Made by a program: the position numbers and the translations under genes
Notes under the pieces: model-generated
What the model saw: only the letters and a program-made list of their open reading frames with translations
Databases searched by the model: none
Told to the model about the DNA's origin: nothing
In this document: piece by piece, positions 27,731 through 33,309 of the stretch
How the letters are laid out: each line of letters begins with the position of its first letter
How positions within the stretch are numbered: position 1 is the first letter of the stretch
NCBI GenBank assembly: GCA_029247265.1
Contig: JAQWLN010000211.1
Location: 1-64,000, forward strand
Length of the DNA: 64,000 nt
Reading direction: 5' to 3'
Origin: Fuerstiella sp.
GTDB taxonomy: Bacteria > Planctomycetota > Planctomycetia > Planctomycetales > Planctomycetaceae

Positions 27731-29296
27731 TCAGGGACTGTCCGCAGCCACTTCATCCGCCGGTTGTTCAGAAATTCCTTTACGCTCGGCATCCGCTTTA
27801 TTCAACGCCTGCAGATACGCACGAGCTGCCGCTTCAATGATGTCCGTGCTGACACTCTTGCCCATGTAGTGACGACCATGAACATTGATCGTCACCCGAA
27901 CTTCTCCCTGTGCGTCTTTGCCTTCCGAGACGCTGCGAACATTGAATTCCTCAAGTCGCGCCGTCAATTCGATGATACGTTCCATGGCGCGAAACACTGC
28001 GTCAATCGGCCCGTCACCGGTGGCCGCGTCACACAGGACCGGCTGCTCTTCACACTTCAATTCCAGTGTCGCCGTTGGAATTGCTGACGACCCAGCTGAT
28101 GTATGAAAGCTGACCAGTTTCCAGCGTTCCGGTGCATCCGCCAGACGGTTGTCGATTAACGCAATGATGTCGGAATCGTAGACTTCCTTCTTTTTGTCAG
28201 CCAGGACGATGAAGTCATCAAATGCCTTCTGAACGGCGGCGTCATCCAGATCGAAGCCCAGCTCTTTTGTGCGGTCACGAAACGCATGGCGACCACTGTG
28301 CTTCCCCAGGACCAGATTCCGCCCCGAATACCCCACGTCTTCCGGACGCATGATTTCGTAGGTGGACCGCTCCTGCAACATTCCGTGCTGGTGAATGCCC
28401 GCTTCGTGAGCAAAGGCATTCTGCCCGACGATGGCCTTGTTCCTCTGCACTTTCATGCCGGTGATCGATGAGACCAGCTGACTTGTCGGAAACAGTCGCT
28501 CGGTGTTGATCTTCGTATGGACACCGTAGTAATCCGCACGCGTGCGAATGGCCATGACCAACTCCTCCAGAGCGGCATTGCCGGCCCGTTCACCCAGTCC
28601 GTTGATCGTGCACTCGACCTGACGAGCCCCCGCTTCGATCGCCGACAGGCTGTTCGCCACTGCCATGCCAAGGTCGTTGTGACAATGACTGCTGATAATC
28701 GATCGATCAATATTCGAAACGTGCTGCTTCAGATAGGAGATTACCTTGAAGTAGTGACTTGGAGTGGCATAGCCGACGGTGTCCGGAATGTTGACTGTTG
28801 TCGCACCAGCATCAATGGTCTTTTCAACCACTTCGCACAGGAAGTCCAGTTCGGTACGAGCTGCGTCTTCAGGCGAAAATTCGATGTCGTCACAGAATTC
28901 TTTCGCATCCCGAACCGAATGCACAGCGCGATCAATAATCTGCTGCTTGTCCATCTTCAGTTTGTGCTCGCGATGGATGGCGCTGGTGGCCAGAAAAACG
29001 TGAATACGCGGCTTTTCGGCACTCGCCAGCGCTTCTTTTGCCTTTTGAATATCGTCGTCCCGACTGCGAGCCAGCGCGCAGATCGTGGACCGGTCACTGA
29101 ACTGACTGGCAATCATCTGCACGGCTTCGAAGTCACCAGGAGAGGCGATCGGGAACCCAGCCTCGATCACGTCGACACCAAGTTCCACCAGCGCGTTGGC
29201 GACCTTCAGCTTTTCGTTGGTATTCATACTGCAGCCCGGAGACTGCTCGCCGTCGCGCAGTGTCGTGTCGAAAATGATGATCTGGTCGCCGGTCAT
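27731..29296 (-). CDS. leuA: 2-isopropylmalate synthase LeuA
   Basis: Catalyses acetyl-CoA + 2-ketoisovalerate to 2-isopropylmalate, the first committed step of leucine synthesis. The 521-residue product has the DRE-TIM barrel motifs DTTLRDGEQSPG (residues 9-20), HCHNDLGMAV (metal-binding histidines) and NGLGERAGNAALEE. A complete C-terminal LeuA regulatory domain runs from about residue 385 (ATLELKCEEQPVLCDAATGDGP ... TDIIEAAARAYLQALNKA), so leucine feedback inhibition is likely. The start at 29296 has AGGAG 9 bases upstream. A leader peptide and attenuator lie directly upstream at 29352-29471, so transcription is probably also leucine-controlled. No other leu gene is nearby. Confidence 0.96.
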   Translation of the reverse strand: MTGDQIIIFDTTLRDGEQSPGCSMNTNEKLKVANALVELGVDVIEAGFPIASPGDFEAVQMIASQFSDRSTICALARSRDDDIQKAKEALASAEKPRIHVFLATSAIHREHKLKMDKQQIIDRAVHSVRDAKEFCDDIEFSPEDAARTELDFLCEVVEKTIDAGATTVNIPDTVGYATPSHYFKVISYLKQHVSNIDRSIISSHCHNDLGMAVANSLSAIEAGARQVECTINGLGERAGNAALEELVMAIRTRADYYGVHTKINTERLFPTSQLVSSITGMKVQRNKAIVGQNAFAHEAGIHQHGMLQERSTYEIMRPEDVGYSGRNLVLGKHSGRHAFRDRTKELGFDLDDAAVQKAFDDFIVLADKKKEVYDSDIIALIDNRLADAPERWKLVSFHTSAGSSAIPTATLELKCEEQPVLCDAATGDGPIDAVFRAMERIIELTARLEEFNVRSVSEGKDAQGEVRVTINVHGRHYMGKSVSTDIIEAAARAYLQALNKADAERKGISEQPADEVAADSP

Positions 29297-29351: not shown

Positions 29352-29381
29352 AAAAAAACCCTGAGGCACTGCCTCAGGGTT
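29352..29381 (-). terminator. leuA attenuator terminator hairpin
   Basis: On the minus strand AACCCTGAGGC/GCCTCAGGGTT form a perfect 11-bp stem (29381-29371 with 29367-29357) with a 3-base loop. Seven T follow, beginning within the stem end (29358-29352). It lies 55 bases before the leuA ATG and 42 bases after the leader-peptide stop, where an attenuator terminator is expected. The plus-strand T tract is 9 bases from the stem and less suitable, so this works mainly towards leuA. Confidence 0.85.
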
Positions 29382-29410
29382 TGAAACTTCTTTTTTGATA
29401 AGCATGCGTA

Positions 29411-29951: not shown

Positions 29952-29986
29952 AAAGCCCGGTGTCACATATGACACCGGGCTTTTTT
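29952..29986 (+). terminator. Strong intrinsic terminator upstream of the tRNA array
   Basis: GCCCGGTGTCA/TGACACCGGGC form a perfect 11-bp stem (29955-29965 with 29970-29980) with loop CATA, extended by flanking A/T pairs and followed by six T (29981-29986). It is oriented for plus-strand transcripts. No annotated plus-strand gene precedes it, so it ends either a small RNA or the short leader ORF transcript. Confidence 0.8.
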
Positions 29987-30063: not shown

Positions 30064-30135
30064 GGGGTTGTGGTGTAACGGCAGCACAGCAGACTTTTAA
30101 TCTGCACGGTGAGGGTTCGAATCCCTCCGATCCCA
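30064..30135 (+). tRNA. tRNA-Lys(TTT)
   Basis: Acceptor GGGGTTG pairs with CGATCCC (two G-T pairs). Anticodon loop CTTTTAA sits on GCAGA/TCTGC; T-loop is TTCGAAT. Discriminator A; CCA not encoded. First member of the array. Confidence 0.88.
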
Positions 30136-30162
30136 TACCGCCCTGTGGCGAATGAACAACCG

Positions 30163-30234
30163 GCACTGGTCGTCCAGCGGCTAAGACTCCGCCTTCGTAA
30201 CGCGGCAACGTGGGTTCGATTCCCACCCGGTGCT
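30163..30234 (+). tRNA. tRNA-Thr(CGT)
   Basis: Acceptor GCACTGG pairs with CCGGTGC. Anticodon loop TTCGTAA on CCGCC/CGCGG has a C-C mismatch at the pair next to the loop. T-arm GTGGG-TTCGATT-CCCAC is perfect. Discriminator T; CCA not encoded. Confidence 0.82.
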
Positions 30235-30297
30235 CTCAGTGAGTCGCAGGCACAACCTGCAAACGCTCTTTGACAACCACTTTCGTTCAATTGCAAC

Positions 30298-30368
30298 GCG
30301 CCCATGATGTAGCGGTAGCCTACTGCCTTGCCATGGCGGAAGCGCGGGTTCAACTCCCGCTGGGCGCA
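30298..30368 (+). tRNA. tRNA-Gly(GCC)
   Basis: Acceptor GCGCCCA pairs perfectly with TGGGCGC. Anticodon loop TTGCCAT on CTGCC/GGCGG. T-arm GCGGG-TTCAACT-CCCGC. The D-arm (GTAG/CTAC) is cramped against the anticodon stem, so the D region is irregular. CCA not encoded. Confidence 0.8.
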
Positions 30369-30516
30369 AACCGGGCGTTTGATCGGGTGCCGTGGCACTC
30401 TGCCAGAACGCCGAACACGTGTACACCGCAGGATGTTTGGTTAGCCGCGTGTCAGCCGGGGAGTTAACCGAAACATGCTTTTTATTTGCGCTGACGATAC
30501 CGTCAGAACTCAATTT

Positions 30517-30591
30517 TGCGGTGGGGCCTGTGCTGGTACGGGCAGGCGGTTGTTAACCGTTCAGACGCAGTTTCGATTCCTGCCACCGCAG
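30517..30591 (+). tRNA. tRNA-Asn(GTT)
   Basis: Acceptor TGCGGTG pairs with CACCGCA. Anticodon loop TTGTTAA on GGCGG/CCGTT (two G-T pairs). T-loop TTTCGATT region with GCAG/CTGC. Discriminator G; CCA not encoded. Confidence 0.82.
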
Positions 30592-30723
30592 CTTGTGGCA
30601 CCGGCCACGGCGGATGCGAGCTAACGCCCCGCGAGAATGTTGTTCGTCGCTGAGAACAGACGGCAGAAATTGACGAGCACAAAATTAATTTCTCGCCCGA
30701 CAATTGTTATACGACGTTGAATG

Positions 30724-30814
30724 GGAAGGACAAGCCAATGGGCGATGGCAGCTGTTTCGAAAACAGTCGAGTGTGCGTGAGCATTCCCTGGGGGTTCGAA
30801 TCCCTCTCCTTCCG
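30724..30814 (+). tRNA. tRNA-Ser(CGA)
   Basis: Acceptor GGAAGGA pairs perfectly with TCCTTCC. Anticodon loop TTCGAAA on GCTGT/ACAGT. A long class II variable arm (about 20 bases) is present, as expected for Ser. T-loop TTCGAAT; discriminator G; CCA not encoded. Confidence 0.88.
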
Positions 30815-30834
30815 CTTTCAACAATTCAGAATTT

Positions 30835-30906
30835 GTGCCTCTGACCGAGCGGCAAAGGTGCCGGGCTTCCACCCCGGTCAGGCGGGTTCGACTCCCGCGA
30901 GGCACT
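30835..30906 (+). tRNA. tRNA-Gly(TCC)
   Basis: Acceptor GTGCCTC pairs perfectly with GAGGCAC. Anticodon loop CTTCCAC on CCGGG/CCCGG. T-arm GCGGG-TTCGACT-CCCGC. The next tRNA begins at the very next base, so 3' processing of this one and 5' processing of the next share a junction. Confidence 0.87.
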
Positions 30907-30981
30907 TGCGGGGTAGTTTCCGCTGGTAGAAATACGTGGCCTTGAACCACGTGTCCGCAGGTTCGATTCCTGCCCCCGCAG
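30907..30981 (+). tRNA. tRNA-Gln(TTG), with C at position 33
   Basis: Acceptor TGCGGGG pairs perfectly with CCCCGCA; T-arm GCAGG-TTCGATT-CCTGC. The anticodon stem CGTGG/CCACG encloses CCTTGAA, giving anticodon TTG but a C where U33 is nearly universal. Discriminator G; CCA not encoded. Confidence 0.8.
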
Positions 30982-30997
30982 TTTATTGTGATCATGC

Positions 30998-31070
30998 GGC
31001 ACCGTAGCCCAACGGAAGAGGCAGTCGTTTCAAAAGCGACACAGTGTGAGTTCGAATCTCGCCGGTGCCA
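30998..31070 (+). tRNA. tRNA with Leu anticodon CAA but short (class I) variable loop
   Basis: Acceptor GGCACCG pairs perfectly with CGGTGCC; D-arm GCC/GGC; anticodon loop TTCAAAA on GTCGT/GCGAC; variable loop only ACAGT; T-arm GTGAG-TTCGAAT-CTCGC; discriminator A. Bacterial tRNA-Leu normally has a long variable arm, so the charged amino acid is uncertain although anticodon and A73 fit leucine. Confidence 0.82.
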
Positions 31071-31179
31071 TCAGGCAGCGCCTGCATTCATGGCGTGGAT
31101 GGTTTGTTACGCATTGATCGTTGCACCGCCGAGATGGTTTATGTGATGCCATCCTTCTGGCACATACAAAACATGATAC

Positions 31180-31254
31180 GCCCTCGCAGAGCAGTCCGGA
31201 GTGCTCGCCATCCTGTCACGGTGGAGATCGTCGGTTCAAATCCGACCGGGGGTG
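31180..31254 (+). tRNA. tRNA-Asp(GTC)
   Basis: Acceptor GCCCTCG pairs with CGGGGGT (G-T at the end and one inside). D-arm GAGC/GCTC; anticodon loop CTGTCAC on CCATC/GGTGG; T-arm GTCGG-TTCAAAT-CCGAC. Discriminator G, as usual for Asp; CCA not encoded. Confidence 0.85.
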
Positions 31255-31335
31255 CTTGAATAACGGCTGATTCGACAGCTCAGACTTCGAACAAAGGAAA
31301 GACCGTTTCGGCGATATCCTGCGTCGTTGGAATTT

Positions 31336-31410
31336 GGCGTGGTAGCCCAACGGCAGAGGCATCCGGCTTAAGCCCGGAACAGTGTGGGTTCGAATCCCAC
31401 TCACGCTATC
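31336..31410 (+). tRNA. tRNA with Leu anticodon TAA but short (class I) variable loop
   Basis: Acceptor GGCGTGG pairs with TCACGCT (G-T at both ends); D-arm GCC/GGC; anticodon loop CTTAAGC on TCCGG/CCGGA; variable loop ACAGT; T-arm GTGGG-TTCGAAT-CCCAC; discriminator A. Closely related in body to the CAA and TAG members. Confidence 0.82.
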
Positions 31411-31423
31411 GATCATTGAACAT

Positions 31424-31498
31424 GGCACCGTAGCCCAATTTGGCAGAGGCGCTCGGCTTAGAACCGAGATGTTGGGAGTTCGAATCTCCCCGGTGCTA
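31424..31498 (+). tRNA. tRNA with Leu anticodon TAG but short (class I) variable loop
   Basis: Acceptor GGCACCG pairs with CGGTGCT; D-arm GCC/GGC; anticodon loop CTTAGAA on CTCGG/CCGAG; variable loop ATGTT; T-arm GGGAG-TTCGAAT-CTCCC; discriminator A. It would read CUA, a codon used three times in the leuA leader peptide. Confidence 0.82.
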
Positions 31499-31503
31499 CT
31501 TTC

Positions 31504-31588
31504 GGGCTTTGTTCCTCATGGCGGTCTGTAAAACCGCTGTCAATAAACGCTGAGGTGGTGAGGAGAGGTTCGATTCCTTCAAAGCCCA
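31504..31588 (+). tRNA. tRNA-Tyr(GTA)-like gene without a D-arm
   Basis: Acceptor GGGCTTT pairs perfectly with AAAGCCC. Anticodon stem GCGGT/ACCGC encloses CTGTAAA (GTA). A long variable region follows, as in tRNA-Tyr. Only about 10 bases separate acceptor and anticodon stems, too few for a D-arm. The T-stem (AGAGG/CCTTC) is imperfect. TTCCTCA in the short 5' spacer is complementary to TGAGGAG in the variable region. It may be a degenerate copy or a structurally novel RNA. Confidence 0.5.
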
Positions 31589-32169: not shown

Positions 32170-33309
32170 ATGAAAACATCTAGTTCCGGATGCCCGATAT
32201 CGCTGTGGACACACGGCAGAAGGCTGCAATCGCCGTCGTTCTGCGTGAACATCGTGGCATGTACGATGGCAGTTCTGCTTGCCGGCTGCCAGAGCGGCAA
32301 TCACTATTACGCTCAATCCATGCCCGGAAGCCTGCGGCTGACAGCTCAATCCAATCCTCAGGAAGCAGATTTATCGCGATTGGCCAGCGCATCCGGCGGC
32401 AGCCAGACAATCGGTCGCGGCGACGTGCTGGAAGTTTCGATCGCAGCAAGCCTGAGCAAAGACGATCAATTTACGATGAAAATTCGGGTCGCGGAAGACG
32501 GCAGAGCACTGTTGCCCGATATCGGATTTGTAACGCTGGCTGGTGTTGAACCCCAGGCGGCTGAAGCCCTGATTGGCCAGGAGGCCGTGAACAAGGGGTA
32601 TTATCGCAACCCTACGGTGACCGTGTCGTACCTCAGCAGAAAAATGAATCGCGTTCGGGTGATTGGCGCTGTGAATGAACCCAGCACTTATGAGCTTCCA
32701 CCTGGTGAAAGCGATGTGGTGTCGGCCATTGCGGCAGCCGGCGGACTGGCGGAAAACGCTGGCGAAAAAGTGGAAGTACGTAACCCAAACCATGTTTCAT
32801 CGGCAAAACGCCCCATCGTCGCCGGAGACTCGAAGCCTTCGGTTTCGACGGTAAGTGCAACATCGCCGAGCGACGGCATGAGGTCATACACCATCAATCT
32901 GGTGTCTGCGGCCAGGGCCGGAACAAATATGTACGCCGTAGAAGATGGTGGTGTTGTCATGGTCGAAAAACGCGACCCAGCCCCCGTCAAAGTCGGTGGA
33001 CTTGTGAATAAACCGGATGAGTACGACTATCCCGTGGGCAAAGATTTAACAGTCCTGGGTGCGATTTCTCTGGCGGGCGGTACCAACAACCAGCTGGCCG
33101 ACAAGGTCTTCGTAATTCGCCCCCTCGTAAACTCGAAGGACCCGGCGGTGATTCAGGTCAGTCTTCGGAAAGCAAAGAAGATGGGGAAAGAAAACATACT
33201 TCTCGGTCCGGGCGACATTGTCTGGGTTGAGCAGACAACCGGAACCGTCTTCATGGAAGCACTACAGCTGATTCGATTCGGAGTCTCCGGATCAGCACCG
33301 TTGTTCTGA
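32170..33309 (+). CDS. Wza-like polysaccharide export lipoprotein
   Basis: A 379-residue outer-membrane polysaccharide export protein. The N-terminus ends in lipobox LLAGC (Cys40) after a hydrophobic stretch. A Poly_export domain follows (IGRGDVLEVSIAASLSKDDQFTMKIRVAEDGRALLPDIGFVTLAG, about residues 76-125), then an SLBB repeat (RVIGAVNEPSTYELPPGESDVVSAIAAAGG, about 160-190) and a second near residues 274-310 (VKVGGLVNKPDEYDYPVGKDLTVLGAISLAGG). It should form the export channel for a capsule or exopolysaccharide. It is followed after 78 bases by the tyrosine autokinase and then the polymerase-like gene, making a compact export locus. Confidence 0.9.
   Translation: MKTSSSGCPISLWTHGRRLQSPSFCVNIVACTMAVLLAGCQSGNHYYAQSMPGSLRLTAQSNPQEADLSRLASASGGSQTIGRGDVLEVSIAASLSKDDQFTMKIRVAEDGRALLPDIGFVTLAGVEPQAAEALIGQEAVNKGYYRNPTVTVSYLSRKMNRVRVIGAVNEPSTYELPPGESDVVSAIAAAGGLAENAGEKVEVRNPNHVSSAKRPIVAGDSKPSVSTVSATSPSDGMRSYTINLVSAARAGTNMYAVEDGGVVMVEKRDPAPVKVGGLVNKPDEYDYPVGKDLTVLGAISLAGGTNNQLADKVFVIRPLVNSKDPAVIQVSLRKAKKMGKENILLGPGDIVWVEQTTGTVFMEALQLIRFGVSGSAPLF

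Follow-up and report, generated by a model that had tools for sequence, protein, structure and literature searches.

The twelve tRNA-type genes packed into 1.5 kb of Fuerstiella DNA (30,064 to 31,588 of the window, the whole stretch of 64,000 nucleotides that was analysed) are probably a shortened copy, now resident in the chromosome, of a mobile tRNA array, and would serve as spare translation tRNAs against tRNA cutting or stress. The last of these genes, as judged from its sequence, encodes a conserved RNA of the tRNA-Tyr type, built on a new scaffold that lacks the D-arm. A chance origin of the array is excluded by the related arrays in many other planctomycete genera. The array and its immediate surroundings contain the following features.

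27731..29296, minus strand: leuA (2-isopropylmalate synthase), with Pfam LeuA_dimer and HMGL-like domains; same position in G001 and G002
29952..29983, plus strand: intrinsic-terminator-like hairpin just upstream of the array (14 pairs, T tail)
30064..30135, plus strand: array tRNA-Lys(UUU); ARAGORN, Rfam 66.6 bits; 99% identical in G002
30163..30234, plus strand: array tRNA-Thr(CGU), C-C mismatch in the anticodon stem; ARAGORN, Rfam
30298..30368, plus strand: array tRNA-Gly(GCC), irregular D-arm kept family-wide; ARAGORN, Rfam; 96% identity to another genus
30517..30591, plus strand: array tRNA-Asn(GUU); ARAGORN; 96% identical in G002
30724..30814, plus strand: array tRNA-Ser(CGA); ARAGORN, Rfam 36.6 bits
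30835..30906, plus strand: array tRNA-Gly(UCC); ARAGORN, Rfam
30907..30981, plus strand: array tRNA-Gln(UUG), C33, abutting the Gly gene; ARAGORN, Rfam
30998..31070, plus strand: array tRNA-Leu(CAA), short variable region, 73 nt; ARAGORN, Rfam
31180..31254, plus strand: array tRNA-Asp(GUC); ARAGORN, Rfam
31336..31408, plus strand: array tRNA-Leu(UAA), short variable region; ARAGORN, Rfam
31424..31498, plus strand: array tRNA-Leu(UAG), short variable region; ARAGORN, Rfam
31504..31588, plus strand: tRNA-Tyr(GUA) without D-arm, pseudoknot of the 10-nt D region with the variable-arm loop; covariance model R1 (98.8 bits), covariation, array position
32170..33309, plus strand: polysaccharide export protein on the other, conserved flank (Pfam Poly_export and SLBB)

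Eleven plus-strand tRNAs, from 30,064 to about 31,499, were called by ARAGORN where the original prediction had placed them, and ten of these scored 36.6 to 66.6 bits with the Rfam tRNA model, whose gathering score is 29 bits. The tRNA-Asn was called by ARAGORN only and falls under the Rfam gathering score. The predicted count of twelve is completed by the Tyr-like gene at 31,504 to 31,588, a conserved structured RNA that was missed by both ARAGORN and the Rfam tRNA model. The structural oddities that had been noticed are real: the C-C mismatch of Thr also occurs in the arrays of two other genera (G022 and G056), C33 is present in 5 of the 22 array Gln genes compared, and the irregular D-arm of Gly(GCC) is retained throughout the array family. 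Gly(UCC) and Gln do abut, with zero spacer at the 30,906/30,907 junction. The three Leu-like genes lack a long variable arm and measure 73 to 76 nt, against 85 to 89 nt for the housekeeping tRNA-Leu genes; this short variable region is family-wide and is likewise seen in Felix O1-type phage and cyanobacterial plasmid arrays. None of the array genes encodes CCA, as predicted, yet this is ordinary here because the housekeeping tRNAs also lack it, except for one Leu(GAG) gene with CCA nearby, and the absence of CCA was rejected as a special array trait.

A Pfam scan of the ten proteins around the array placed it among ordinary chromosomal genes, with MazG and leuA on one side and the polysaccharide export protein, a ParA/AAA-type ATPase and an O-antigen ligase-like protein on the other. 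The original prediction that no integrase is visible holds for these ten proteins, but the hallmark of the family is instead an HNH endonuclease, which in this genome lies on contig C126. No match to a sigma-70-type promoter was found upstream of the array, and planctomycete promoters may differ from that type. A further terminator-like hairpin, on the minus strand at 29,356 to 29,382 of the window, lies directly upstream of leuA, is 91% conserved in congeners and is possibly an attenuator.

Sequences related to the array were found in 62 of 98 relatives, part of them as single weak matches. A single isoacceptor order, running from Phe to Cys, is kept across about 40 loci (5413 concordant versus 350 discordant gene pairs, 94%), and full arrays hold 36 to 40 tRNA genes that cover nearly all codons. 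The window array corresponds to the middle part of this canonical set, with the conserved gene order and the array-lineage tRNA sequences of the planctomycete family, and its retained genes span only part of the genetic code. A second array fragment of the same genome, with Phe and Cys, lies on contig C130. In full arrays an HNH protein (Pfam HNH) is encoded between tRNA-His and tRNA-Trp; it is missing from the window array, and contig C126 carries it together with an array-type tRNA-His. The HNH gene occupies a separate locus in all eight genomes of the genus, mostly with tRNA-His just upstream. Its homologues are found inside the tRNA arrays of Nostoc, Kovacikia, Acidiphilium and Mycobacterium plasmids and of one jumbo phage. 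The idea that HNH is an array-only gene was rejected, as close homologues are solitary in many array-less genomes (L141-L152, L154, L159, L160), where they may be traces of former arrays or represent a domesticated gene.

Arrays split over several loci (L089, L129 and L122 of G050; also G030, G003 and G059) share nearly no isoacceptor between their parts, and the canonical order is kept in each. This scarcity of shared isoacceptors is significant in G050, G030, G059 and G003 and not in the genome of the window. The little overlap suggests fragmentation or reciprocal loss; complementary loss as a proof of selection was downgraded to suggestive, since simple fragmentation would also explain it. 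Other loci showed a tRNA-Sec gene within an array (L240 5735-5820; 47.6 bits against a Rfam cut-off of 47) and a housekeeping-like tRNA-Arg that breaks off after the anticodon arm and lacks its 3' half (L031 200-260; genome G000, contig C219), possibly an insertion site.

The proposal that the array is a mobile reserve set is partly supported, in that the set is supernumerary and its family moves between replicons: HNH homologues stand in plasmid and jumbo-phage arrays, and two IMG/VR contigs (G098 and G099) carry a same-order array with HNH. Both contigs are genuine tailed phages: the first encodes terminase, portal, head, tape-measure and tail-fibre genes, and the second encodes terminase, portal, major head protein, polymerase, helicase and RNA ligase. 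Carriage on mobile elements was therefore found for the array family in these two phage contigs; the window copy has ordinary flanking genes. The tRNA-Tyr of the same-order phage arrays is of the canonical form. A Ro60 (TROVE) protein adjoins the array in the first phage contig and in several chromosomes, and it is the most recurrent protein neighbour of planctomycete arrays (L245 7233-8891; L100, L207, L221, L076, L081, L240, L079, L086, L087). The Ro60 of the phage shares 92% identity with a chromosomal copy, and the same phage also encodes a PTH2-type peptidyl-tRNA hydrolase. Ro60 as a fixed array partner was rejected, since no more than 15 of 98 genomes contain its close clade and the genome of the window lacks it.

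It is important to consider whether the array could be the ordinary tRNA set of the genome for these isoacceptors. Separate, dispersed housekeeping genes were found for nine of them, namely Lys(UUU), Thr(CGU), Gly(GCC), Asn, Gln(UUG), Asp and Leu(CAA, UAA, UAG); these are spread over many contigs and mostly outscore their array counterparts. For Ser(CGA), Gly(UCC) and Tyr no separate gene was found elsewhere in the assembly, which is incomplete (6.5 Mb in 280 contigs), and this is what speaks for an ordinary set. However, the contig with the start of the housekeeping tuf-type tRNA cluster stops just after Thr(UGU), and the same cluster in the closed congener G005 includes Tyr and Gly(UCC). The codon of Ser(CGA) should be readable by Ser(UGA). 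Identity between the array genes and their own housekeeping isoacceptors is 51 to 68%, whereas their best matches in the arrays of other genera reach 74 to 96%, and the array is consequently a separate tRNA lineage. As in Mycobacterium-type units, the anticodons are redundant with those of the housekeeping tRNAs and the bodies are different. Given the separate genes and the separate lineage, an ordinary set was rejected and can hardly be credited.

A second alternative, that a phage or plasmid array was captured long ago and is now a relic under neutral erosion, its oddities being mutational damage, draws on signs of loss in the genus. The gene number is below that of full arrays, and the genus has its arrays broken over several loci. 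Thr and Gly(GCC) are missing from the array of G001, and in G002 the anticodon arm of the Tyr-like gene contains 4 inserted nt; this gene is possibly damaged, and Gly(GCC) also looks damaged. On the other hand, comparison with the colinear array of G002 gave 92.6% identity for the tRNA genes against 58.0% for the intra-array spacers and 62% for the third codon positions of the flanking leuA, which served as a neutral yardstick for divergence (LeuA protein, 94.8%). Over the aligned window bases, the Tyr-like gene and that of G002 share 91% identity. By these divergences the array is under purifying selection, and a neutral relic was rejected for most of its genes. The oddities recur in other genera, and the oddest gene, the Tyr-like one, has covarying helices throughout, so that the earlier term "degenerate" did not survive the comparison. 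A decaying relic is accordingly improbable; the alignments show a set that shrinks gene by gene in the genus, the remaining genes being conserved.

The structure of the last gene was explored with a covariance model (R1) built from eight Tyr-like sequences, with the pseudoknot helix left out. Of 397 sampled genomes of the class, 37 had a match to the model of at least 56 bits, the next candidate scoring 31 bits, and further matches in other classes of the phylum scored 64 to 83 bits. Closely similar D-armless designs exist in other genera. The D region is exactly 10 nt in all 37 distinct sequences, which is too short for a D stem-loop to be possible, and the predicted D-armless character is therefore real. 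Six bases of this region pair with the loop of the variable arm, and the variable arm retains its own stem; the D-V helix together with this stem therefore makes a pseudoknot. Across 46 distinct sequences 95.8% of the cells are paired, and 20 of the 26 pairs show changes on both sides. The covariation was reached by none of 500 shuffles and was lost when the partners were slid, although the sequences are related and the cells are not independent events. The D-V helix alone showed pairing and covariation above all shuffles, and held-out members from other classes and viral contigs keep the complementarity with different letters, such as CCCGCG/CGCGGG. In the window copy five of the six D-V pairs are in register.

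Apart from the D stem-loop between acceptor and anticodon stems, which the gene at 31,504 to 31,588 lacks, the canonical features of a tRNA are present: a 7-bp acceptor stem (98.8% of cells paired), a 5-bp anticodon stem (97 to 100%) and a T-arm with a TTCRATT-type loop (98.9%). A pyrimidine-G-G after the D-V helix is conserved in most copies and may take the place of G18-G19, lost with the D-loop. Exact-pattern scans of viral contigs for the D-armless RNA gave no match; a looser pattern retrieved seven contigs, five of them fitting the model. Among the D-armless viral contigs L392 alone was confirmed as phage, with terminase, helicase and thymidylate synthase genes. Its D-armless copy (L392 8691-8777) has the anticodon UCU (Arg) and an encoded CCA, and the contig also has a canonical tRNA-Tyr. 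Two other candidate identities were discarded: a damaged form of the common array tRNA-Tyr, because the two do not align as one family and the gene has its own covarying structure, and a tRNA-Sec, given the score of 28.4 bits against a cut-off of 47 and the GUA anticodon.

That this RNA is of the tRNA-Tyr type is supported by its position as well as its bases. The gene usually lies next to Leu(CAA), the slot of Tyr in canonical arrays, with one isolated exception (L383), and a canonical tRNA-Tyr is present in none of 36 D-armless array loci, some of them overlapping, versus 30 of 48 other large array loci (P about 2e-10). The GUA anticodon and A73 are found in 33 of 37 distinct sequences, and the gene has the GUA, G1-C72, A73 and long variable arm of a tRNA-Tyr. 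In one genus the scaffold is duplicated, with Cys-type copies (GCA, U73) and a Tyr copy nearby (L372 1202-1287, L373 3058-3143, L374 2996-3081); GCA and U73 are known Cys signals. It could be argued that the element is a regulatory or decoy tRNA-like RNA with no decoding role, since the usual D-arm cannot form and Ro60, which binds tRNA-like RNAs in other bacteria, stands beside several arrays. Such a role is nonetheless improbable in our estimate, as the gene occupies the Tyr slot to the exclusion of canonical Tyr, retains its Tyr identity bases, switched its discriminator to U73 when respecified to Cys, and encodes CCA in two viral copies.

A competing account of the whole array is codon supply, the standard proposal for phage tRNAs, by which it would speed the decoding of a transferred element or of particular host genes instead of replacing cleaved tRNAs. 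The near-complete codon coverage of full arrays is in favor of this account; however, the window array duplicates isoacceptors already present and sits among ordinary chromosomal genes, and we regard codon supply as unlikely here, though a little less so than a relic or a decoy. Under the favored reading, a spare set of translation tRNAs of phage or plasmid origin, the array would descend from one of about 40 tRNA genes and one HNH endonuclease gene, of a family that circulates among Planctomycetota and their tailed phages. The array genes would be transcribed and matured with added CCA, and host synthetases would charge the products, the Leu, Tyr and Cys identity bases being kept. The array tRNAs would then form a second pool used in translation, which may pay off when phage-defence or toxin nucleases, or other translational stress, cut or deplete the ordinary tRNAs. 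Their divergent bodies, above all the rewired variable region of Tyr, would make them poor nuclease substrates, and the HNH protein may aid the spread or recombination of the array.

Use under stress is plausible by analogy with the trn operon of Anabaena, a spare tRNA operon that is silent and then stress-induced (PMC10272220). According to PMC13096335, the variable loop of tRNA-Tyr is cut by Septu and retron-Eco7, and the tRNA-Tyr of phage T5 resists retron-Eco7 through a distinctive variable loop. A variable loop tied up in a pseudoknot would be a further solution of this kind. More tentatively, it is possible that Planctomycetota and some phages use translation-active Tyr, Cys and Arg tRNAs in which the D-V pseudoknot replaces the D-arm and the pyrimidine-G-G probably replaces G18-G19, selected to hide the variable region from nucleases like Septu.

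According to PMC11551756, bacterial tRNAs are invariably cloverleaf-shaped and natural arm-less tRNAs occur in mitochondria only. This statement is contradicted by the present D-armless scaffold, which is supported by covariation, is spread over many planctomycete genera and some viral contigs, and has been respecified to other amino acids. The scaffold would also provide a natural starting point for the design of tRNAs to which other enzymes may be blind, and a concrete structural solution in the arms race over tRNAs between phages and the defences that cut them. Moreover, the array family connects phages, HNH endonucleases, Ro60 and reserve tRNA pools in Planctomycetota.

Arrays of this sort are a known kind and are new for Planctomycetota in the literature searched, which was largely without subscription papers and preprints. 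In Mycobacterium, tRNA array units are found on chromosomes, plasmids and phages (PMC5966550, PMC12803027), and the planctomycete family has in common with them dense supernumerary arrays, a single embedded HNH, redundant anticodons, divergent bodies and an association with mobile elements; the array on a Mycobacterium intracellulare plasmid encodes a homologous HNH at 33% identity. The gene order is different, however, and the window copy, with only 12 genes, has neither the at least 20 tRNA genes nor the embedded HNH of a Mycobacterium-type unit. In the M. intracellulare array examined, the D-arm of tRNA-Tyr is normal, whereas the Tyr-like gene here has none. The trn operon of Anabaena PCC 7120 comprises 26 tRNAs on a megaplasmid, is repressed by TrcR and is induced by translation inhibitors; HNH genes go up when TrcR is mutated (PMC10272220). 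Like the present array, it is a supernumerary tRNA operon beside a housekeeping set. The Nostoc and Kovacikia plasmid arrays, which are related to that of Anabaena, share the HNH family and the short Leu tRNAs but differ in gene order. Among phages, Erwinia phage phiEa21-4 (Felix O1-type) has Leu genes with short variable regions, as here, and the jumbo phage Tunturi_5 carries HNH and tRNAs with RtcB-type ligase and RimK-like genes. In the latter, a Tunturiibacter phage, the tRNA array and HNH are followed by the tRNA ligase and then the RimK-like gene (L140 5329-11804), an arrangement that echoes the translation genes co-regulated with the Anabaena trn operon. The Felix O1-type and jumbo phage clusters have other gene orders, the same order being found only in the IMG/VR contigs G098 and G099.

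For the D-armless scaffold, the nearest parallels are the mitochondrial tRNA-Ser and the engineered "mini HisT", a D-armless tRNA that functions in Escherichia coli (PMC11551756), both also without a D stem-loop. Unlike these, the scaffold described here is natural, occurs in bacteria and phages, and combines a long variable arm with pairing between the loop of that arm and the D region; it is distinct from the metazoan mitochondrial tRNA-Ser in having a 6-bp D-V helix as a substitute and in residing in bacterial or phage DNA. The tRNA-Tyr of T5 is likewise a phage tRNA-Tyr with an altered variable region, and the available part of its description (PMC13096335) reports no loss of the D-arm. 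By analogy, the nuclease resistance of the T5 tRNA-Tyr may represent the selective pressure behind the D-armless scaffold too.
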